The position numbers and the translations under genes are program-made. The notes under the pieces are model-generated. The model saw nothing but the letters and a program-made list of their open reading frames with translations. It ran no database searches and was not told where the DNA came from. From the NCBI GenBank assembly GCA_036397795.1, contig DASWIF010000012.1, forward strand, positions 1-46,031: a DNA stretch of 46,031 nt, given 5' to 3'. Every line of letters starts with the position of its first letter. Positions within the stretch are counted from its first letter, which is position 1. This DNA is from Candidatus Saccharimonadales bacterium. GTDB taxonomy: Bacteria; Patescibacteriota; Saccharimonadia; Saccharimonadales; DASWIF01. Below, in pieces: positions 771 through 40,531 of this stretch.

Positions 771-1835
771 CTATCCGCGCATCATCCTATCGAGTTCTTC
801 CAGATCGACGGCGTAATTTCTAGCCTCGTCGTAGGTAATCGTACCGTTATGAATCATTTGAACTAAGGTTTTATCCATCGATTGCATACCGTGTTCAGCT
901 CCAGTTTGAATAACGGCCTCGAGCTGGTGAGATTTGCCCTCGCGAATAATATTTCTTACCGCCGGGGTGGCAACTAATATTTCGGCGGCGGCGGAGCGAC
1001 CCCCGCCAATAGCCGGTATCAAGCGCTGGGAACAAATCGCCATAAGGATATTAGCCAGTTGGGCTCTGATTTGAGGCTGCTGGTGCGGCGGAAAAACGTC
1101 AATCATACGATCGACCGACTGGCTAGCTGAGTTAGTGTGCAGAGTGGCAAACACCAAGTGCCCCGTTTCGGCGATGGTAATGGCGGCTGAGATGGTTTCC
1201 AAATCCCGCATCTCACCGATCAAGACGACGTCCGGATCCTGCCGCAGGCTGGAGCGCAAGGCCGCCGAGAAGGAATAAGTGTCGTAATGGACTTCGCGCT
1301 GGACGACCACGGCTTTTTTACTTTTATGGGTAAACTCGATCGGGTCTTCAATGGTAATTATGTGGGTAGCCCGTTCCTCGTTGATTTTGTCCACCAGTGC
1401 CGCCAAAGTAGTTGACTTACCCGAGCCGGTCGGGCCGGTGATTAGCACCAGTCCGCGCGGATAATCGGCAAAACCGTTTATGACGTTGGGCAAGCCCAAT
1501 TGCTCAATCGAGAGTATTTCATTTGGAATCAAACGCAAGGCGGCAGCTAAATTACCCCGCTCGTGAAACGAGTTGACCCGAAATCGGCCTAACTCGCCAA
1601 AAGCAAAGGAAAAATCGAATTCTTTGTCTTTGAGTAAAATCTGCTTTTGATCCTCGTCTAAAATGGCGAAGATCAGAGCCTCGACCGCTTCTTCGTCCAG
1701 TACCTTGCCCCCCTGAACGGGAGTTAGACTGCCGTCTATTCTGAGCATCGGCGGCAGGCCGACTTGAAGGTGAAGGTCAGATGCTTTCTTCTTAATGACC
1801 TCTTCCAGGAGTAATTCGATTCTTTGTTCAGCCAT
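771..1835 (-). CDS. pilT: Type IV pilus retraction ATPase PilT
   Basis: A 354-residue hexameric secretion ATPase of the PilT type. Visible motifs are Walker A GPTGSGKST (about residue 134), the Asp-box region HIITIEDPIEF, Walker B VVLIGEMRDLETISAA and the His-box FATLHTNSASQSVDRMIDVFP. The short N-terminal PAS-like domain (KKASDLHLQVGLPPMLRIDG) and the total length are normal for PilT and much shorter than PilB. PilT powers pilus retraction, giving twitching and DNA uptake, from the cytoplasmic face of the pilus base. It lies 17 bp after pilB and 3 bp before pilC. A good Shine-Dalgarno (GGAGGTGGGAAATG) supports the start. Retraction capability suggests pili used dynamically, for example for host attachment or DNA import; the latter is inference. 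Confidence 0.95.
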   Translation of the reverse strand: MAEQRIELLLEEVIKKKASDLHLQVGLPPMLRIDGSLTPVQGGKVLDEEAVEALIFAILDEDQKQILLKDKEFDFSFAFGELGRFRVNSFHERGNLAAALRLIPNEILSIEQLGLPNVINGFADYPRGLVLITGPTGSGKSTTLAALVDKINEERATHIITIEDPIEFTHKSKKAVVVQREVHYDTYSFSAALRSSLRQDPDVVLIGEMRDLETISAAITIAETGHLVFATLHTNSASQSVDRMIDVFPPHQQPQIRAQLANILMAICSQRLIPAIGGGRSAAAEILVATPAVRNIIREGKSHQLEAVIQTGAEHGMQSMDKTLVQMIHNGTITYDEARNYAVDLEELDRMMRG

Positions 1836-1852: not shown

Positions 1853-3652
1853 TTACGCGCTATCCAGCGCGGCTACCCGGTTGACTTCGGCGATTGAGGT
1901 TAACCCCTGCAGCGCCTTTAAGTAACCGTCCTCGCGCATCGTTACCGTGCCTTGAGCTTGCGCCAGTTTCTGGATTTCACCGCTGGTCGATCGTTTGGTA
2001 ATCAAGTTTTCAATCTCCTCGTTGACGTCTATGACCTCGTACAACCCCATTCGGCCCTTATAGCCGCCGGGATTTTGCTTACTGTCATGACCTTTATACA
2101 AAGTATAAGCTTTTTCACCGGCCAGAGGCAAATTGTCGTAACCCAGATCCTGGGCCGCCTGGGCGGCGTCTTCTTTGGTTTTGGGCAGCAAGCGGCCCAA
2201 TGTCTCCTGGATGGACTTGGTCTCGGCGTCGTTAGACTGATATTCTTCCTTGCCGCCTTCGTCTATGCGCCTGACTAGCCGCTGGCCAATGACGGTATTA
2301 ACCGTACTGGCGATCAAAAACGGTTCGATGCCCATATCCAACAAACGCGGCAACACGCCCGAAGCCGAGTTGGTATGAAGAGTTGAAAATACCAAATGCC
2401 CGGTCAGCGCGGCTTGAACTGCCAGCTGGGCGGTCTCTTTGTCCCTAATCTCCCCGACCAGCACCACGTCCGGGTCCTGACGCAAAATAGCCCGCAGCCC
2501 GGAAGCAAAGGTCAGACCGACATCAGAGTTGACTTGAATTTGATTAACCCCACTCATCTTGTACTCCACCGGATCTTCCAGCGTAACGATGTTTATCTCG
2601 TCGGAAATAATTTCCTGTATCAAGGCATACATTGAAGTTGACTTACCTGATCCAGTCGGACCGCTGGTTAAGACCATGCCGTTGGGTTGTTTGATACCTT
2701 CTCGAATCGTTCTTAGGGCCCGGCCGCGATAACCCATGTCCTCTAACTTGAGGCTGACTCCGGATTTATCCAGCAGCCTAATGACAACCTGCTCTCCCCA
2801 GACCACCGGCGAGATAGCAATTCTTAAGTCAACTTCCTTTTCGGCTACCAAAATATCAAACTGGCCGTCTTGGGGTACCCGGTGCTCGTCAATTTTGAGC
2901 GAACTGAGAATTTTAACCCGAGAAACCAATGCCGGCTCAATTGATTTGGGCAACCGCATGATTTCTCTTAAAACACCGTCAATCCGGGCTCGGATCTTAA
3001 CGTCGGTTGGCATGGGCTCAATATGGATGTCGGACGCGCCCGATTTGGCGGCATAGTCCAAAATAGTCGTCAGTGCCCGGCTAATCGGCGAGTCTTGGAC
3101 GATTGTTTTGATGTCTTTGTCTTTTTTCTTATCGCTTTTGTGCTCGTCCTCGGCTTGATCGGCAGCTTTTTCTTCAGCTCCCAAAGCGGCGGATATGCCT
3201 TCATCCAAACCGACGTGATACTGGGCCAAAATTCCCTTTATACCTGTTTCGGACGCCAGATATACCTTCAGCGGACGGCTGATTTTATTCGATAAGAAAT
3301 CCACTGCTTGAACATTATTGGCGTCTAGCATCGCCACCACTAACCTGTTATTCATCTCTCCCAGCGGAACGGCCATAAAACGTTCGGCGATATCTTTTGG
3401 CACGAGATTTAGAACTTTTGGGTCGATCGCCGCTTCTGATAAGTTCACGTAGGGCACGTTGGTGACGTTGGCGAGGGTTTTTGTCAGCTGTTCGTCGTTT
3501 AAGACGCCCTTTTTAATCAATAACTGAAACAACGGTTCTTTGGCCTTGGCGGCTTCGTCTTTATAGGAGGCCAGGTCTTCGTCGGCAATTAAACCAGCTG
3601 AAACCAAGGCTTCCTCAACCTGTTGCTGGTTTTCCGTCGAGAGGACACTCAT
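1853..3652 (-). CDS. pilB: Type IV pilus extension ATPase PilB/GspE
   Basis: A 599-residue GspE/PilB assembly ATPase. It has an N-terminal MshEN-like domain (about 15-150), a charged acidic linker (about 155-180, KKKDKDIK), then the ATPase core with Walker A GPTGSGKST, TLEDPVEYKM, Walker B DPDVVLVGEIRDKETA and the His-box FSTLHTNSASGVLPRLLDMG. PilB polymerises pilins at the inner membrane. The C-terminal region normally carries a CxxC...CxxC zinc motif before the GY.GR.GLYE sequence; here GGYKGRMGLYEVI is present but the preceding insert (about 465-525) contains no cysteine, and the whole protein has none. It sits between a small membrane protein (12 bp upstream) and pilT. Confidence 0.95.
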   Translation of the reverse strand: MSVLSTENQQQVEEALVSAGLIADEDLASYKDEAAKAKEPLFQLLIKKGVLNDEQLTKTLANVTNVPYVNLSEAAIDPKVLNLVPKDIAERFMAVPLGEMNNRLVVAMLDANNVQAVDFLSNKISRPLKVYLASETGIKGILAQYHVGLDEGISAALGAEEKAADQAEDEHKSDKKKDKDIKTIVQDSPISRALTTILDYAAKSGASDIHIEPMPTDVKIRARIDGVLREIMRLPKSIEPALVSRVKILSSLKIDEHRVPQDGQFDILVAEKEVDLRIAISPVVWGEQVVIRLLDKSGVSLKLEDMGYRGRALRTIREGIKQPNGMVLTSGPTGSGKSTSMYALIQEIISDEINIVTLEDPVEYKMSGVNQIQVNSDVGLTFASGLRAILRQDPDVVLVGEIRDKETAQLAVQAALTGHLVFSTLHTNSASGVLPRLLDMGIEPFLIASTVNTVIGQRLVRRIDEGGKEEYQSNDAETKSIQETLGRLLPKTKEDAAQAAQDLGYDNLPLAGEKAYTLYKGHDSKQNPGGYKGRMGLYEVIDVNEEIENLITKRSTSGEIQKLAQAQGTVTMREDGYLKALQGLTSIAEVNRVAALDSA

Positions 3653-3664
3653 ATTGCCGAGAAT

Positions 3665-3919
3665 TTAGTCGTTACTCTCAACAAACGGGGTATTGGTACC
3701 GTCGTCGCCAATCCGAATTAGTTCTGTCGGGTTTAAGGCTTCGTCATTGAATATATTGTCACTGGGAACACCAAACTCAGCGCTGATTGGGTTGATGACT
3801 TCCACTTCCGTCGAGCGGTTGGCGTCGGTGTTAATAATGGCATTACCCAAAAAGTAAGAAGCCACTAAACTGATGCTTACGACCAAAATTACGACGGCAA
3901 TGTCACCTTGTTTGATCAT
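3665..3919 (-). CDS. Small membrane-anchored protein in the pilus operon
   Basis: An 84-residue protein that I do not recognise. It has one N-terminal membrane helix (about residues 7-28, AVVILVVSISLVASYFLG) followed by a polar, acidic tail of about 55 residues rich in Asn, Asp and Glu. Its start overlaps the pilO stop by 4 bp (ATGA) and it ends 12 bp before pilB, so it is translationally coupled inside the pilus operon. By position it corresponds to PilP in other pilM-N-O-P clusters, but it is too short for PilP, shows no lipobox and no beta domain. A role as a pilus accessory subunit or assembly-complex anchor is inference from context only. Confidence 0.75.
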   Translation of the reverse strand: MIKQGDIAVVILVVSISLVASYFLGNAIINTDANRSTEVEVINPISAEFGVPSDNIFNDEALNPTELIRIGDDGTNTPFVESND

Positions 3920-4536
3920 TGGACTACCTTTGTCTCCGTGCCGATATCGGCCTTAGGTTGAAAATATGTTGAGATCGCGATGTCCGCCGTAATGGCTTGA
4001 TCGGTACCGGAGATTGACAAAGCCCGAACCTGGAAGGGCCGGATGCTCCTATCAAGGTTGTCCACGAACTTTTTGAGGCTGTCGTAGCTACCGGCTACGC
4101 TGATGGAAAAGGCCATCTCAAACGGCGAGGGCGTAACTGCCGTGCCGGGTGCTTCATTGCTTTGATCAGTTCCGGCAAAGCCAGTCAGCTCCAGACCGCT
4201 ACGCTTGGCAATCGAGTTAACTGACGTGACCAGCGCGGCGTAATCGTAGGTGCTCGGCAGAGCGTCTAGTATTTCACTAGACTTGACGCCGCTGGCTTCA
4301 AAAACAGAAAATTGCGCAGTCAATTCATCGGCATTGATTAGATTCTGCCTAAGCGTTACCTTGGCCAGGTTCTTCTCTTTGATAACCCGGCTGTTATAAC
4401 CCCTCAAATCCCACAAAAAATTAACAGTAACAATCGAGAACGACACGACAATGGACGCGATTACTACACTAGTCAAGACCGTCGATTTAGCTTTTTCTAT
4501 GGCTTGGCGCTTGGTCGAGAAGATAGCTAATTTCAT
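3916..4536 (-). CDS. pilO: Type IV pilus alignment protein PilO
   Basis: A 206-residue PilO-like protein. An upstream in-frame ATG at 4569 would overlap pilN by 32 bp; I prefer the ATG at 4536, which follows the pilN TGA by one base and gives MKLAIFSTKRQA. There is a short cytoplasmic part, a membrane helix (about 22-45, VLTSVVIASIVVSFSIVTVNFLW), a coiled region with Lys/Glu, and a periplasmic ferredoxin-like domain. PilO pairs with PilN to form the alignment complex between PilM in the cytoplasm and outer components. Sequence similarity is low, as is normal for PilO, so the call rests on architecture and on its position after pilM-pilN. Confidence 0.85.
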   Translation of the reverse strand: MKLAIFSTKRQAIEKAKSTVLTSVVIASIVVSFSIVTVNFLWDLRGYNSRVIKEKNLAKVTLRQNLINADELTAQFSVFEASGVKSSEILDALPSTYDYAALVTSVNSIAKRSGLELTGFAGTDQSNEAPGTAVTPSPFEMAFSISVAGSYDSLKKFVDNLDRSIRPFQVRALSISGTDQAITADIAISTYFQPKADIGTETKVVQ

Positions 4537-4537
4537 C

Positions 4538-5254
4538 TCAGTTTTGCCCCTCTTCGCTCGGCGCCGCAAATAAGCCAGTCGGTCTTTCCTTGACCGAGTT
4601 ACTGGTCGTGATTTTAGGAACGCTCAGTTTAGCGCCGGTCTTGGTGTTATCAAACAAAACCGGGTCAAACTTCAGGACAATCTTAAAAGTATTTCTATCT
4701 TCTTCAACCGAAAATTCTAAAATCACGCTGGTAAGTGGCTTGATGACTTCTGGCGCGCCGTCAAAAGTGAATTCGGCATTCTTTAAGGTGTCGACAAAAA
4801 CATTGACGGCGTTGGCGTCGGGACCGCTGCCATTAATTTCCGCCCCGGCTTCACCCTCAGCACCAAATAGCGCGTTCTCGGAGGTACCGCCAAAGAAAAA
4901 GTCGACTTTGATTAATGAAATGTCTTTCGGTATTAACGTATTGAGGTAATCGAATAAACGCTGAGCCGCCGGTTTCTGATCGTGCAGGCTCGGCAAAGCC
5001 TCAATCTGTTTTTGAATGGTCACTATCTTGTCTAGGTCCGGTTTTGACTGAAGTTGGGCCAACGCTTCATCTATCTCGCTTTGGGTATTTGACCGTTCCA
5101 GCCGTTGGTATCCGAAGACAAAAATGGCTAACAGAATAGCGACGGTCACAAACAGCAGGCTGGTTATTATTGAACCTACCATCAATAGCCGTTTCAGCCG
5201 TTGGGTCTGTAAATACTCCTTTTTGATGTCAGGTAGGAGGTTGAGACTAATCAT
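4538..5254 (-). CDS. pilN: Type IV pilus alignment protein PilN
   Basis: A 238-residue bitopic protein. The N-terminus MISLNLLPDIKKEYLQTQRLKR is the typical PilN cytoplasmic tail (INLLP motif) that binds the groove of PilM. It is followed by a membrane helix (about 24-48), a coiled coil (about 50-90) and a periplasmic domain. The start overlaps the pilM stop by 4 bp, indicating translational coupling. The C-terminal part has a small Gly/Ala/Glu-rich insert (about residues 125-150) that I cannot interpret. It ends with TGA, direct evidence that UGA is read as stop here. Confidence 0.9.
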   Translation of the reverse strand: MISLNLLPDIKKEYLQTQRLKRLLMVGSIITSLLFVTVAILLAIFVFGYQRLERSNTQSEIDEALAQLQSKPDLDKIVTIQKQIEALPSLHDQKPAAQRLFDYLNTLIPKDISLIKVDFFFGGTSENALFGAEGEAGAEINGSGPDANAVNVFVDTLKNAEFTFDGAPEVIKPLTSVILEFSVEEDRNTFKIVLKFDPVLFDNTKTGAKLSVPKITTSNSVKERPTGLFAAPSEEGQN

Positions 5255-6300
5255 ATCGATGCTCTTTCGGCTAAACCGACCGCTACGGAAAAATGATTGG
5301 ATAGCGCGATCAAATCATTGTGCTTCGATTGTGGGTAGGACACATTTAGCCAGGCGTTGCCGATTTCCACTTGGAGGCCAACCTTGTTGGCCAGATGAAG
5401 CGGAAACCCGGGCAGGGTCGCCGCGCCGCCGGAAACGATGATTTTATCCAGCTTGACGCCGCCGTATCGCGCGTCAAAGTATTTGATTGATTTTTGAACC
5501 TCGCTGACCACGCTGTCGATCGTGCCCTCCAGAGCCCTATAGATCTGACCCTCGAGCTTGTCCTGGTTTAGGCCGAACTTATAAACAAATTGGGTTGCCT
5601 GCTTTTCGTCAACGTTGAGATTCTGCTGAGCCGCCTTAACAAACGTCGAACCGCCAGTCGGAATAGAGCGTACCAGCCGTGGATTGCCGCCATAATTAAT
5701 AACCAAATCAGTAGCTCTATCGCCGATGTCGACAATCAGCCCGGCCCCAGTCGAACCCAGCGGCAATAGCGAGCGGCAAAGCGCTAAACCGTCGGGCTCG
5801 AGCGCCACGACGTTAAGACCAATCCCCTCAAGCAGATCAAGCCGGCCCTCGGCAAAGGAGTTGGATACGGCCGAGATCAGAACCTCTACTTTGTCCTGAC
5901 CGGTCGGGGAATCGCCCAGCACTGCCCAGTCGACTTTGGACTCACTTATGGACATCGGGATGTGTGTCTCCAATTGGTATTGGATAGTTTTCTCTAGTTC
6001 ATGTTGGGCTAATTTGGGAAAATCAACCACCGTGGCAAACATCTTATTAGAAGGTATTCCCACCACGACTTCCTTTACGCCCACACCCGTTTGCTTGACT
6101 GCCTGGGCAATCACGTCGGCTAGTCGCTTTTGGTCGCTGGCGGAATCGCTCTCAGCTGTTTTGGCGTCAATCGGCACGCTGCCATAACGAACCAAGCTCT
6201 TGGTTCCGCCGCCACCCCGCAGTTGGACAATCCGAACAGCCGTCGTCCCGATGTCTAGGGCAAAAAATTCACTAAAACCAAGTAAGCTCTTGAGGTTCAT
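5251..6300 (-). CDS. pilM: Type IV pilus assembly protein PilM (actin-like ATPase)
   Basis: A 349-residue FtsA/actin-fold protein. Motifs are phosphate-1 FALDIGTTAVRIVQL (about 13-27), phosphate-2 GLIVDIGDRATDLVI (about 188-202) and the adenosine motif IIVSGGAATLPGF (about 288-300). PilM binds ATP and the PilN tail at the cytoplasmic face of the pilus machine. It is the first gene of the tightly packed pilM-N-O-x-B-T-C run. An extended -10-like TGCTAAAAT lies at 6311-6319, 10 nt before the ATG, so a promoter just in front of pilM is possible, although GGAAGAAG in that gap could also act as a ribosome binding site. Confidence 0.95.
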   Translation of the reverse strand: MNLKSLLGFSEFFALDIGTTAVRIVQLRGGGGTKSLVRYGSVPIDAKTAESDSASDQKRLADVIAQAVKQTGVGVKEVVVGIPSNKMFATVVDFPKLAQHELEKTIQYQLETHIPMSISESKVDWAVLGDSPTGQDKVEVLISAVSNSFAEGRLDLLEGIGLNVVALEPDGLALCRSLLPLGSTGAGLIVDIGDRATDLVINYGGNPRLVRSIPTGGSTFVKAAQQNLNVDEKQATQFVYKFGLNQDKLEGQIYRALEGTIDSVVSEVQKSIKYFDARYGGVKLDKIIVSGGAATLPGFPLHLANKVGLQVEIGNAWLNVSYPQSKHNDLIALSNHFSVAVGLAERASI

Positions 6301-6354: not shown

Positions 6355-8847
6355 CTAAAACACCGGAGGTAGATCTCTGACTGATTGAGTCTCGAGCGCA
6401 TTCGGATCGCCTAATAAAAGTGGGGGGTTGGCGTATAGCTCGGGGCCAAAGCGGAATATCTCGGCATGGCCGGTTCGGAGTACGCCTCGGAGTACGCCCT
6501 GACGGGTTCGGTTCAAAATCAGTTGCTTGGCAATGACGGCTCCTCTGATTTCTAGCCGGTTGTTACACAAACCGGTAGACAGTGTGTTGATCTCTGCACC
6601 ACTGACTTCTACGCAAGTGTGAATGAAGCCGCCGCCACCACTAGGCGGCACAGTTTCGTCAAACAATGACACGTATAGCCCATCCAGCCGGGTGACGTCC
6701 CGCTCGATATAGATATTGCCCCGGACAATCAAGGCAAAGGCCGGTCCGCTGATCGAACCATTGTTGCTGCTAAAACCGCTCTGGTTATATTCAATATTGC
6801 CCCTTATCTGAACATCGCCGCTAATAATTATGGTGGTGCGTCCGTTTATCGTCCAGCCGCTGTTGCGTCCTAGTTTAAAATTAGAATTCGGATCGGACTT
6901 ATTGATAAAGTACTGACCGGTTGGAGGCACGCTAGTGTAAGCGTTGGGAGCGGTCTGGGTTAAGCTATCGCTCTTATCTAAGTAGTTAAATAGGTCGTAA
7001 ATACAAAGTGGGCTAGCACCAAGGTTGCCCAGCGGTCCGGTGTTAGCAAACGTCAAAGCCGTGCCGGTGGGATTACCGAGCGTGCCAAACTGGTTAATGT
7101 CGCCCAGGCTCATGGCAGCCAAGTCGCCATAGGCGCCAACGCCGCCGTGTTCAAACCCGCGGATGCCCGCCTGGCCCATGGTTGTAACGCCAGAGCAATC
7201 CAGCGGATCAGACGCTGGATTGGTTCGATTAGCGTTGGCAAAAACCCCGCCCGACCAAATGTCATTGTTGGCAATTCTAAAATAAGGCGCTTCTTTAATA
7301 AGAATGCAGACGTCGTCAAAAATCCAAGCCGGCCCGTCTTCGTCGTCCGTTGTGTTGTCGGTGTTGTCTTCCGTAGCTGAGCCCGGTGGCCCGCCGGCCG
7401 GTCGAACGATGCCGATAAAGCACACTTCGTCTCCGGGCCGGGCGTTACTATTAACCTCGTAGGTTACTCCTCTGATCCGGCTTTGGCCGGGATCCAGCCC
7501 CGATTGGTCCCAGACCGCGCCCATGGTGGTGTTATCTATTGAACTGGCGCTGGGCTGAGATCGACTAACAATCCTGAGGATATTTTGAGCGGTTGCGCGC
7601 CAGTTGTTTCCGCCACTAACCTGAACTCTATGCTCGTACCTATCGCCCGAAATTTCACCATTATTAATAACCTCGCTATCGACTGTGAACCTATCCCCCG
7701 GAAACAATACCGAACTACTATTTACGCCCCTAAGTTGAATATCGTAATCCCACGCCCCGCTTACCGGGCATAAGATCCGATAGTTAATTGAGTCATATGG
7801 CAATCGGAACTGAATACCGTTAGTTTTCTTGACGTTATACCAAGTCCATTCGTAAACGAAACCTTTCTGCACCGTTATCTCGGCCCAGCCATTTGGACTA
7901 CCGGGTATACCATTGCCTAACCAGCCACTAGTAGCATTAAAATTGTTAGTGCCGCTGTAATCCATAAACCAAGTCTGGTTAACGCTACCATCGCTGCGCC
8001 GTAACTCTCGTACTTCCATTCTATAGTTACTATTGTTCTGAATTGTTGCACCATTAATACCAGCGCGGTCATCATCAAACCATTCCAGCCTCACGTCTAC
8101 TGGATCGGTTACGTCGCAATCCGGTGCGAACCCCAAATTAAAATCCGTCAAGGTATCATTCGTGCCGTTCCTGTCTTGAAAAGCAAATTTAGCGTTACCG
8201 TTGTCTCTGGTGCCAATGGCTTCTGCCCCCGGAGCTCGGACTTTAAAGGCATTGACACCGCCGACTCCGGCCGTATCAACCCTCAACTCGACCACATAAT
8301 AGCCGTCGTAGGCCTTCTTGCCGCCTGTATTAATTTGCTCCAGCTGGTTTCTGGGAAAGGTTAAATCAACCGGCTGGCACTGCGCGTTGCCTACTTGGCC
8401 CCAATCCCTACTGGAGTATGAATCCAATAAAGTTGCAGTATCCGTAACGTCATTGCCGCTTACTTTATACACATTGAAGACTGTCGGGGCATACACGTCG
8501 GAATCAATATCTCCTGATCCGATCGCGCCAGAACAGACGTCAGGATGCAGTAATCGTACGGTTTGTGGTCCGATTATGCTTGGTGGAAAGTAAATTCTGA
8601 CCCTAGAGCTCGGGGCGTCCAGACCATTACCCGCACCATAATTAGCTACCAGCATCCAAACGTCGCCACCGCCATTACCCGACGGACTGGCGCCTGGTAC
8701 AAAATTATTCGGTTCGGGCATTCGGTTGGTAACCGAAAAAGCCCCTTGAGCGTAAGCTTGATCGTGGTTGAATACTGCCCAGGCAAGGACAGTCATCAGT
8801 AATAAGATTACGGTTTTGATATGGCTCGTGACTAATTGATAGGTCAT
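6355..8847 (-). CDS. Large secreted cysteine-containing protein next to the pilus operon (adhesin candidate)
   Basis: An 830-residue protein I cannot assign to a named family. It starts with a clear signal peptide: a hydrophobic core (about 13-26, TVILLLMTVLAWAVF) and a probable AYA|QG cleavage site near residue 33. The mature part is rich in Asn, Gly, Ser and Thr with long predicted beta stretches, typical of extracellular adhesins. It holds ten cysteines spread along the chain, striking because cytosolic proteins here have almost none. The C-terminal 200 residues contain beta-helix-like segments (TIIISGDVQIRGNIEYNQ, FALIVRGNIYIERDV) resembling surface or pilus-associated proteins. There is no C-terminal membrane helix or LPxTG. 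It overlaps the TPR gene upstream by 4 bp and ends 54 bp before pilM, so it probably works with the pili or cell surface; this is inference. Confidence 0.8.
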   Translation of the reverse strand: MTYQLVTSHIKTVILLLMTVLAWAVFNHDQAYAQGAFSVTNRMPEPNNFVPGASPSGNGGGDVWMLVANYGAGNGLDAPSSRVRIYFPPSIIGPQTVRLLHPDVCSGAIGSGDIDSDVYAPTVFNVYKVSGNDVTDTATLLDSYSSRDWGQVGNAQCQPVDLTFPRNQLEQINTGGKKAYDGYYVVELRVDTAGVGGVNAFKVRAPGAEAIGTRDNGNAKFAFQDRNGTNDTLTDFNLGFAPDCDVTDPVDVRLEWFDDDRAGINGATIQNNSNYRMEVRELRRSDGSVNQTWFMDYSGTNNFNATSGWLGNGIPGSPNGWAEITVQKGFVYEWTWYNVKKTNGIQFRLPYDSINYRILCPVSGAWDYDIQLRGVNSSSVLFPGDRFTVDSEVINNGEISGDRYEHRVQVSGGNNWRATAQNILRIVSRSQPSASSIDNTTMGAVWDQSGLDPGQSRIRGVTYEVNSNARPGDEVCFIGIVRPAGGPPGSATEDNTDNTTDDEDGPAWIFDDVCILIKEAPYFRIANNDIWSGGVFANANRTNPASDPLDCSGVTTMGQAGIRGFEHGGVGAYGDLAAMSLGDINQFGTLGNPTGTALTFANTGPLGNLGASPLCIYDLFNYLDKSDSLTQTAPNAYTSVPPTGQYFINKSDPNSNFKLGRNSGWTINGRTTIIISGDVQIRGNIEYNQSGFSSNNGSISGPAFALIVRGNIYIERDVTRLDGLYVSLFDETVPPSGGGGFIHTCVEVSGAEINTLSTGLCNNRLEIRGAVIAKQLILNRTRQGVLRGVLRTGHAEIFRFGPELYANPPLLLGDPNALETQSVRDLPPVF

Positions 8848-9353
8848 AAAGACTCCAACTGCGAATCGATTAGTTCGACTTCAGCGGTCTCGACTTTAGC
8901 CCCGTAGACTGACTTGGCTTTTTCCAGATAGGTTCGAGCATTTGTTTTGTCGTTTAGATTAATGTAACAAAGCGCTATCATTTTTAAAATTGATGGCTCG
9001 TTAGGGTCGGCTGTTTCTTTTTCCCGATAAATTTCAAGTGCTTCTTTATACTGCGCATTATTAAAATAGGCTATGGCAAGAGCTAGTTCAGCATTTTCTC
9101 GGTTTTCTTCGTTAACATGAGCTACCGTGTTTTCCAGATCGTTAACATTAATTTGTTCAGCCGTCAGCGGCCCGGTGGCGGGCGGATCATTTTTAAGCCA
9201 GTAGTAACCGGCGATCGCTCCCACCACGAGGATAACCGCTCCTAAAACCAATCGTAGTTTCTGCTGGGACACACCGACTGAGCCAAACGTCCCCTGATCT
9301 TGGACTTCGGCACTTTTAGCGGCTGGTTTATCGCTTTTTTTCTTTCGGGGCAT
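8844..9353 (-). CDS. Membrane-anchored TPR-repeat protein
   Basis: A 169-residue protein with a Lys-rich cytoplasmic N-terminus (MPRKKKSDKPAAK), one membrane helix (about 32-52, LRLVLGAVILVVGAIAGYYWL), and a C-terminal domain of helical repeats. NAELALAIAYFNNAQYKEALEIYREKETADPNEPSILKMIALCYINLNDKTNARTYL shows the A..Y....Y..A...Y pattern of about two TPR units. TPR proteins are protein-protein adaptors. It is the first gene of a transcript that continues by a 4-bp overlap into the large secreted protein, so it may assist secretion or assembly of that protein, as PilF/Tgl-type TPR proteins do for pili. That function is inference. Confidence 0.75.
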   Translation of the reverse strand: MPRKKKSDKPAAKSAEVQDQGTFGSVGVSQQKLRLVLGAVILVVGAIAGYYWLKNDPPATGPLTAEQINVNDLENTVAHVNEENRENAELALAIAYFNNAQYKEALEIYREKETADPNEPSILKMIALCYINLNDKTNARTYLEKAKSVYGAKVETAEVELIDSQLESL

Positions 9354-39336: not shown

Positions 39337-39342
39337 ATTATA
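39337..39342 (-). promoter_or_regulatory. -10 box of orn inside the 3' end of the CapA-like gene
   Basis: TATAAT ends 7 nt before ATG 39329, minus strand; no Shine-Dalgarno in the gap TAAGGCC other than a weak AAGG. Confidence 0.45.
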
Positions 39343-40531
39343 ACTGTTCCAGTTGGCTAAGGGTTTTGACCCAATTGGTACGCTCAAGATTCAGCCGATG
39401 TATGTTGTCCGGCGCTTTGCGAGTTAGGGCGTCTTTATGCCAGGCACTGACGAGCTCATAGCTAAAGTTAAATTCGAGTTTAGTCAACTTTTGCTGAGTG
39501 GCCAGTTTCAGGCAGTTATCTTGAAAAGTCTCGCACTTTTGCCCCAGCTCGAGCCAAGCAGCGAGATTGTCATCGTATATTAAGGAAATCCCCAAATCCA
39601 ACGCCACACCTCGCATGACCTCGTCCGACCATTCTTGATCAAACATAAAGTTGCCAACCGAGTACATAATGAGTTTGCCCTTATAAACTTCGGTGTTTTG
39701 CACCCAGTGCGGATGGCTGGCGATGACCATGTCCGCCCCCCGATCAATCATGCCCCGATAAACCTCTTGTTTAAATTCATCTCCTTTGGGCTGGTACTCG
39801 GCTCCCTGCTGCGGCGAGACAATCGTCAAAAACTGCCCGGCATAATTTTTAATAACGTCGAGCTCTTCTTTGGTCGGCAACCGAAAGACATTGTGGTAGC
39901 CACATAGCGCCACCGGCAGTTTGGACTCTCGGACTGACTTATCGCTCGCCTCGACCTTAATCGGCAGGCTGGCAATCTCGCAAATATCGTCTCGTACCGA
40001 GTTGTCAAAATGTCCGTAGTACTGAACGCCGACGCTCTCGAGGTTGGCCCGGGTCTGATCGAGTCCAGCTACACCGTTGACATTATCGATGTGGTTGTTG
40101 GCTAAAGAGACGGCGTTAAACCATTCTTCAAATTCCTCCAAATACTTCGGCTGGCAGTTAAAAATTAGGTCATTTGCCTGGACTTCAAATGGAATCACCT
40201 TGTCCGCGACTGGACACTCCAAATGCGCAATCCAGGCGTCGTATTGTTCACGATTAAAGGTATTAAGCCGGCTGAACAAGTAACTGGTTGGGTCGGGTTG
40301 GGTCTCAGCGATACGTTCCATCTGCCGGCCCCAAAAAACCTCACCCATAAACAACCAGCGGGCCTTGGCCTGTACCGGAGCCGGTGTGGCGGCGGGAGCC
40401 GATTCGTCAGATACCCCTGGATAATAGCTATCATCCAACTGGTTAATCCGCCAACCGGTGAAACCGATAATAATCAGGCCGACAATAATCAGGCCGGCTT
40501 TGAGCCATCTTTCACCGTCAGTGACGGCCAT
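39338..40531 (-). CDS. CapA-family metallophosphatase-like membrane protein
   Basis: A 397-residue protein with an N-terminal membrane anchor (about 10-28, LKAGLIIVGLIIIGFTGWRI), a Pro/Ala spacer, and a PGA_cap domain. Motifs are FMGEVFWGRQM (metal motif I, usually GDxxxGR, here Glu instead of Asp), AHLECPVAD, NAVSLANNHIDN, ADMVIASHPHWVQ and LIMYSVGNFMFDQ. CapA-type proteins act in poly-gamma-glutamate capsule synthesis or envelope-linked hydrolysis. The domain faces outside the membrane. The Asp to Glu change may still bind metal. It follows msrB by 6 bp and ends 8 bp before orn. Confidence 0.88.
   Translation of the reverse strand: MAVTDGERWLKAGLIIVGLIIIGFTGWRINQLDDSYYPGVSDESAPAATPAPVQAKARWLFMGEVFWGRQMERIAETQPDPTSYLFSRLNTFNREQYDAWIAHLECPVADKVIPFEVQANDLIFNCQPKYLEEFEEWFNAVSLANNHIDNVNGVAGLDQTRANLESVGVQYYGHFDNSVRDDICEIASLPIKVEASDKSVRESKLPVALCGYHNVFRLPTKEELDVIKNYAGQFLTIVSPQQGAEYQPKGDEFKQEVYRGMIDRGADMVIASHPHWVQNTEVYKGKLIMYSVGNFMFDQEWSDEVMRGVALDLGISLIYDDNLAAWLELGQKCETFQDNCLKLATQQKLTKLEFNFSYELVSAWHKDALTRKAPDNIHRLNLERTNWVKTLSQLEQL

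Follow-up and report, generated by a model that had tools for sequence, protein, structure and literature searches.

On contig DASWIF010000012.1 of a Candidatus Saccharimonadales bacterium (GenBank assembly GCA_036397795.1), whose 46,031-nucleotide stretch analysed here we call the window, an 830-residue exported protein that we name S830 is encoded directly before the operon of a type IV pilus (T4P). We lean towards reading S830 as a secreted, non-pilin tip or priming protein of this pilus, built from a constant docking C-domain and an exchangeable binding N-region and served by a dedicated membrane-anchored helper. Pili are among the main suspects in host recognition by episymbiotic Patescibacteria, and in most genomes examined the T4P locus is adjoined by a secreted protein, so far without a name, whose fold resembles that of a tip pilin and whose front is modular. 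Cultured model species permit gene removal, which makes the role of S830 directly testable.

The linkage of S830 to the type IV pilus by genomics is well supported. In the window the gene ends 54 bp before pilM, at the head of an operon ordered pilM-N-O-orf84-B-T-C (Table 1), as an earlier note on this DNA had placed it, and the pilus synteny that the note proposed to look for is very common in the order. Searching 60 genomes of the order (own genome included) with a profile, A1, built from 32 C-domains revealed the family in 57, with the family gene beside pilM in 49 and pilM no more than 300 bp from the domain match in 47 of these; a search with the single S830 sequence matched 34 of the 60. 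The three genomes lacking a family match comprise two in which pilM lies about 200 bp or less from the contig start and one lacking a strong pilM match. We also gathered loci from named genomes with PilM as bait, taking the 80 top-ranking places out of 134 confirmed (L064-L143; the bait alignment came from S830-bearing loci, a mild bias, and the genome sets partly overlap, e.g., L077 and G045). There the family lies directly upstream within 450 bp in 62 of the 80 and within 1.5 kb in 2 more, and 8 loci offer less than 300 bp of upstream sequence. Across the phylum, 103 of 286 evenly sampled genomes match the family, outside the order mostly more weakly and over the solenoid part of the C-domain. 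Among 20 loci fetched from outside the order, the family gene stands directly before pilM in five (L163, L164, L166, L168, L176), one of which (L164) also has an anchored partner overlapping by 4 bp, directly before pilN in L165 and two genes before pilO in L167. Single-sequence S830 scans of genome-contig and viral-contig collections returned no relatives.

Contig ends are unevenly placed around pilM in the 80 PilM-anchored loci, with 24 upstream and 7 downstream within 3 kb (P 0.003), and 16 upstream and 2 downstream within 1.5 kb, that is, clustered in the S830 gene; assemblies may break there from repeats between copies or from strain variation. Copies of about 2,080 residues with the same C-domain occur away from pilM (L035 4249-10512; L042 9324-15569), and a 25,343-residue open frame in G149 (L165, L187-L190) was discarded as an artefact of 72,000 N.

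S830 carries a Sec signal peptide, and a Sec-like signal is common in the family. The PilM-anchored loci hold 70 family open reading frames (ORFs, with starts placed mechanically at the first start codon), of which 57 that are complete and 550 or more residues long (observed span 636-1551) were used for the signal, cysteine-parity and partner counts; two very long copies were excluded from alignment A3 for size. A simple pattern test finds a Sec-like signal peptide in 56 of the 57 and a prepilin-like motif in none, an LPxTG-like motif occurs in one and a further membrane-like segment in one, and A33, the residue before the cleavage site, is conserved at a level of 90% or more across the family alignment. 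The composition of S830 (Asn 8.3, Gly 11.4, Ser 7.1%) bears out the Asn/Gly/Ser-rich character noted earlier, and the ten cysteines and the export signal are confirmed as well.

The cysteines call for a more qualified account. The contrast drawn in the earlier note between S830 and a proteome almost cysteine-free inside the cell holds on average (1.20% against 0.35%, or 46 cysteines in 13,077 residues, for the 42 other window genes counted; P 9e-4 by a binomial test), and it does not make S830 unique in the window, where SSB, TruB, Fpg, a CapA-like protein and MsrB exceed it in cysteine percentage. The even cysteine number, earlier taken as consistent with disulfides, was rejected as evidence and carries no weight, only 29 of the 57 complete relatives having an even count. 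Better evidence for disulfides comes from the conserved cysteines of the C-domain: C745 and C761 are invariant in all 66 rows of the C-domain alignment, and C551 and C615 are found in 57 of 58 and 56 of 62 of the rows having a residue there and mostly co-occur (both in 54 rows, one alone in 5), as does a further pair in some members (both in 18, one alone in 2). The search for DsbA and VKOR that had been suggested gave a divided answer: the own genome (G000; 779,495 bases in 80 contigs, 95.4% complete) encodes one DsbA-like protein (PF13462, PF01323), which has a hydrophobic segment near its N-terminus and contains the motif CPGC, and VKOR, present in 38 of the 60 genomes of the set, was not found in it. 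Given the DsbA-like protein, disulfide formation is plausible here. The CapA-like protein (named by eye; 39338-40531, 397 residues, six cysteines, hydrophobic N-terminus) is another cysteine-rich, exported-looking product of the window.

The gene preceding S830 encodes, as previously described, a membrane-anchored TPR protein joined to it by a 4-bp overlap. This 169-residue partner has a basic N-terminus, one transmembrane segment at about residues 35-53 (by eye) and TPR repeats at residues 81-150 predicted to lie outside. A hydrophobic segment near the N-terminus marks the ORF that precedes 50 of the 57 complete family genes, 27 of the 50 overlapping by exactly 4 bp and 48 overlapping or lying within 10 bp; the hydrophobicity test is weak alone, since 702 of 1359 ORFs of 100-370 residues in the same loci pass its loose threshold. 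Lysine and arginine are richer before than after the segment in 40 of the 50, predicting that the C-terminal part lies outside. TPR_2 was matched by 18 of 53 scanned partners (the window partner among the 53), and the two tandem S830 copies at L073, like those at L138, come with one partner each. The natural reading is that the TPR partner is a dedicated loading or folding helper of S830. At five loci (L075, L116, L134, L139, L194) an anchored protein of 300-360 residues replaces the TPR-type partner; SurA_N matches two of the four that were scanned (all but L194) at E 0.02-0.15, a profile gave no PDB match, and a SurA/PrsA-like nature of these replacements would be a weak lead.

Structural modelling gives the C-domain a recognisable fold. 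The full-length model of S830 is poor (predicted local distance difference test, pLDDT, 56.7) except at residues about 640-780, and the C-domain alone, modelled with 66 sequences, forms a beta-solenoid (pLDDT 77.3; predicted template modelling score 0.83). When VIA-align was run on the 60 chains ranked highest by Foldseek, the best solved match of the C-domain was ComZ, a competence pilin of Thermus thermophilus (6qvi_A; Z 13.4, root-mean-square deviation 3.4, 215 residues); for the full-length model two ice-binding proteins (Z 10.6 and 10.1) outrank ComZ (Z 9.7). The structure prediction suggested earlier as a check has led to a proposed tip pilin and ice-binding beta-solenoids and not to an enzyme. 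Neither of the outcomes that the note named as refuting its reading, a lack of pilus synteny in relatives or a match to an unrelated enzyme, was therefore obtained. A viral structure library yielded nothing at E up to 0.001.

S830 itself returned nothing useful from Pfam, NCBIfam, PHROGs or PDB sequences, and the C-domain profile had no meaningful match among PDB sequences. NCBIfam applied to 56 relatives found DUF11-type repeats in 4 of them and, beyond that, no more than two isolated weak matches, and a Pfam scan of 56 members with a threshold of E 0.01 matched 9 families in total. PF05567, the beta-propeller of the pilus protein PilY1, is absent from these 9; a genome-wide PF05567 search gave no match in any control genome, so that the absence of PilY1 cannot be read from it. 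The ice-binding family DUF3494 likewise had no match among the 56 at that threshold, set against a fold likeness of Z 11-13. With a threshold of E 1, DUF7305 (PF23981) matches 6 of the 32 family C-domains (best 1.3e-5), and with one of E 0.01 it matches 2 of the 56 members; it does not match S830 of the window. A search for DUF7305 over genomes was uninformative, the controls being silent.

The N-region is the modular part. Eight within-genome tandem pairs have C-domains 36-90% identical and N-regions 21-47% identical, and in four of the eight the N-regions are at the level of shuffled sequence (21-26% against 24-25%) with C-domains 36-74% identical. One family N-region carries DUF7402, which we take to resemble carbohydrate-binding discoidin domains, and Ig-like, CARDB, DUF11, carboxypeptidase-regulatory and List_Bact_rpt domains occur in N-regions of 1-2 each of the 56 members; such modules are of the sort found in long surface proteins. 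Most of the 56 have an N-region without any family match (E up to 0.01). A modular, Sec-exported architecture fits an adhesin, and with the synteny and the tip-pilin match it partly supports the earlier suggestion of a pilus-tip or host-attachment adhesin, of which the position at the tip, adhesion and the binding of a host are the parts that we infer.

On our reading, S830 would belong to the pilT-bearing Saccharibacteria pilus as a non-pilin component. Its signal peptide implies that it would leave the cell through Sec, after which a DsbA-like protein may oxidise it outside the cell and the co-translated, membrane-anchored TPR partner would probably fold, hold or load it. If ComZ and PilY1 are a guide, the beta-solenoid C-domain would dock on the minor-pilin priming complex and so place S830 at the tip, and the exchangeable N-region would point outwards and bind a host cell or surface. 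More tentatively, Saccharibacteria and a broader range of Patescibacteria might use a distinct class of T4P tip, a Sec-secreted, disulfide-bonded solenoid hub with an exchangeable N-terminal recognition module and its own anchored loader, in which the module helps decide which host is gripped. If true, a cell with tandem copies that share the hub and differ in the N-region could display more than one kind of tip.

Several observations weigh against reading S830 as a tip protein. Ice-binding proteins are tied with or close to ComZ in the C-domain comparison (Z 11.4-13.2, 4nu2 at Z 13.2, the next rows falling to 5.7), and Foldseek ranks ComZ first at only E 0.075, because of which the fold alone names no pilus function. 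ComZ is moreover a pilin with its solenoid inserted in the pilin domain, whereas S830 has no prepilin leader and has a separate long N-region. That N-region has no confident fold, its structural matches reaching only Z 6; in the other four tandem pairs it is recognisably related, above the shuffled level, and in one close cross-genome pair (L095/L109) it is no more variable than the C-domain (88% against 84% identity). As to linkage, the family lies elsewhere than beside pilM in 8 of the 60 genomes (in one of these pilM sits at the start of a contig), 8 of the 80 PilM-anchored loci have no family match despite at least 1 kb of upstream sequence, HMMER runs with filters off included, and in 13 of the 20 loci from outside the order the family gene has no recognised pil gene beside it in the stretch seen. 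In one of the negative loci (L097), by eye, pilM is followed by an anchored protein and then by the N-terminus of a secreted, S830-like protein, truncated by the contig end, and several of the 13 adjoin a small anchored membrane protein gene. In other Patescibacteria (L160, L161, L169, L170 and L175), where the stretch seen has no recognised pil genes, a small anchored membrane protein stands beside a secreted, often cysteine-rich (6-54 cysteines) protein with the same C-domain.

Four other explanations have to be set beside a tip protein. S830 might stay on the cell, which probably has no outer membrane, held there by the TPR anchor and lining or gating the pilus exit; we regard this as unlikely, since such a part would be expected to be constant, yet the N-region falls to shuffled level in half of the tandem pairs, although co-encoding of an anchored partner for 50 of the 57 complete copies and the suitability of solenoids as scaffolds speak for it. 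Ranked below it, and improbable in our view, is a DNA receptor, with S830 at the tip like ComZ and capturing DNA for natural transformation rather than a host. ComZ, the best structural match, is reported to bind DNA (PMC6561018, in the available text), and Saccharibacteria are naturally competent according to the accessible part of PMC10633639. Mature S830 is acidic (isoelectric point 4.68; 57 relatives with median 4.89, range 4.21-8.66), weak evidence against this role, though ComZ too is said, in the text available, to be without characteristic positive patches. In S. epibionticum comEC is, in the available text, dispensable and most T4P genes are essential, so that a competence-only part need not persist in nearly every genome, and the modularity of the N-region suits varied ligands better. 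We give less credence again to a pilus-dependent secreted factor, released into the medium in the way that Vibrio cholerae releases TcpF by means of the minor pilin TcpB: S830 is soluble and encoded in the pilus operon, and TcpF, in the portion of PMC9565799 at hand, is encoded in its own pilus operon and binds a minor pilin, but the conserved part of S830 is the C-domain of about 330 residues and not an N-terminal signal as in TcpF, and library scans recognised no effector domain in S830. A mere passenger of the operon without a pilus role is very improbable, its location elsewhere in 8 of 60 genomes standing against a position before pilM that is very common across the order and recurs in 5 of 20 loci outside it.

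The features of the window that bear on S830 are collected in Table 1. Upstream of the S830 and partner pair lies a YchF gene in divergent orientation, and scans for promoters, terminators and repeats were at chance level or uninformative. Elsewhere in the genome, the small contig C9 encodes PilD, an N_methyl-motif protein and a PilX_N protein (PilX_N below the Pfam cut-off). The PilX_N-type minor pilin of this contig (L198 2941-4413; 490 residues) has a long, cysteine-containing C-terminal part and is a possible docking partner of S830.

Table 1. S830, its partner and the adjoining pilus genes in the window.
Feature	Positions	Strand	Remarks
S830 gene	6355-8847	-	ORF, 830 residues; probable type IV pilus tip/priming protein
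S830 Sec (type I) signal peptide, residues 1-33	8749-8847	-	cleavage by eye after A-Y-A33
S830 variable N-region, residues 34-510	7318-8748	-	beta-rich, low-confidence model, presumed binding part
S830 conserved C-domain, residues 511-830	6358-7317	-	beta-solenoid, ComZ/ice-binding-protein-like; Cys 551, 615, 745, 761
TPR partner, 169 residues	8844-9353	-	stop codon overlaps S830 start by 4 bp
pilM	5251-6300	-	TIGR01175 and PF11104 above cut-off
pilN	4538-5254	-	by position and conservation in relatives only; no useful NCBIfam/Pfam match
pilO	3916-4569	-	PF04350 above cut-off
orf84	3665-3919	-	small membrane protein conserved between pilO and pilB in relatives; no useful library match
pilB, extension ATPase	1853-3652	-	TIGR02538 below curated cut-off; PF00437 above cut-off
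pilT, retraction ATPase	771-1835	-	TIGR01420 above cut-off
pilC, platform protein, truncated by contig end	3-767	-	NF052607 below cut-off (partial gene); PF00482 above cut-off

Placed against published Saccharibacteria T4P loci by gene count rather than by TM7x sequence, the S830 gene probably lies just outside them. Grossman et al. 2025 give, in the accessible text, TM7x_00415-00475 as locus one of TM7x, essential and encoding the twitching pilus (PMC12206443), a range of 13 genes if the tags step by five. Wang et al. 2023 give a T4P range of SEML1_0104-0116, also 13 by count, the available main text making no mention of four neighbouring tags (PMC10633639). In four related genomes (L191, L192, L193, L195) the stretch that starts with pilM and closes with a PilX-like gene counts 13 genes, the PilX-like gene being so named from its position (three were scanned, without a Pfam match), and the S830 family gene stands just before pilM; both 13-gene counts fit a start at pilM, which would leave S830 probably just outside the named TM7x locus. 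In the literature searched, with supplements and most subscription papers outside the search, we found no description of the S830 protein in Saccharibacteria, and DUF7305 found no mention in it.

Among known systems, PilY1, the tip and priming protein of type IVa pili in Myxococcus and Pseudomonas, offers the closest overall plan, having in the available account a type I signal, a poorly conserved N-region and a conserved C-domain (PMC7541494); S830 shares this type I signal, variable N-region and conserved C-domain together with a type IV pilus gene set. The differences are that the S830 C-domain is a beta-solenoid and not a beta-propeller, with no Pfam T4P_PilY1 match, and that the gene lies before pilM and not in a minor-pilin cluster. 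PilY1.1 of M. xanthus has a clustered periplasmic helper, TfcP (PMC8833165, as far as its accessible text goes), a precedent for the TPR partner in function and not in sequence. The DUF7305 family differs in that the Saccharibacteria family has the four-cysteine pattern and a longer conserved domain. PilX1 and PilX2 of Nanosynbacter lyticus TM7x, proposed as special minor pilins, resemble S830 in being T4P proteins of Saccharibacteria that bear additional C-terminal domains, and PilX2 is named, in the available text, as adhesin candidate of the other TM7x pilus (PMC12206443); they are described as lollipop-shaped pilins, and S830, by gene count, falls outside the published locus. ComZ provides the likeness in fold, a large ice-binding-type beta-solenoid in association with a type IV pilus, and the accessible part of its description likens the solenoid to the same ice-binding protein type and argues for a position at the tip (PMC6561018). 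S830 is the PilY1 plan with a ComZ solenoid.

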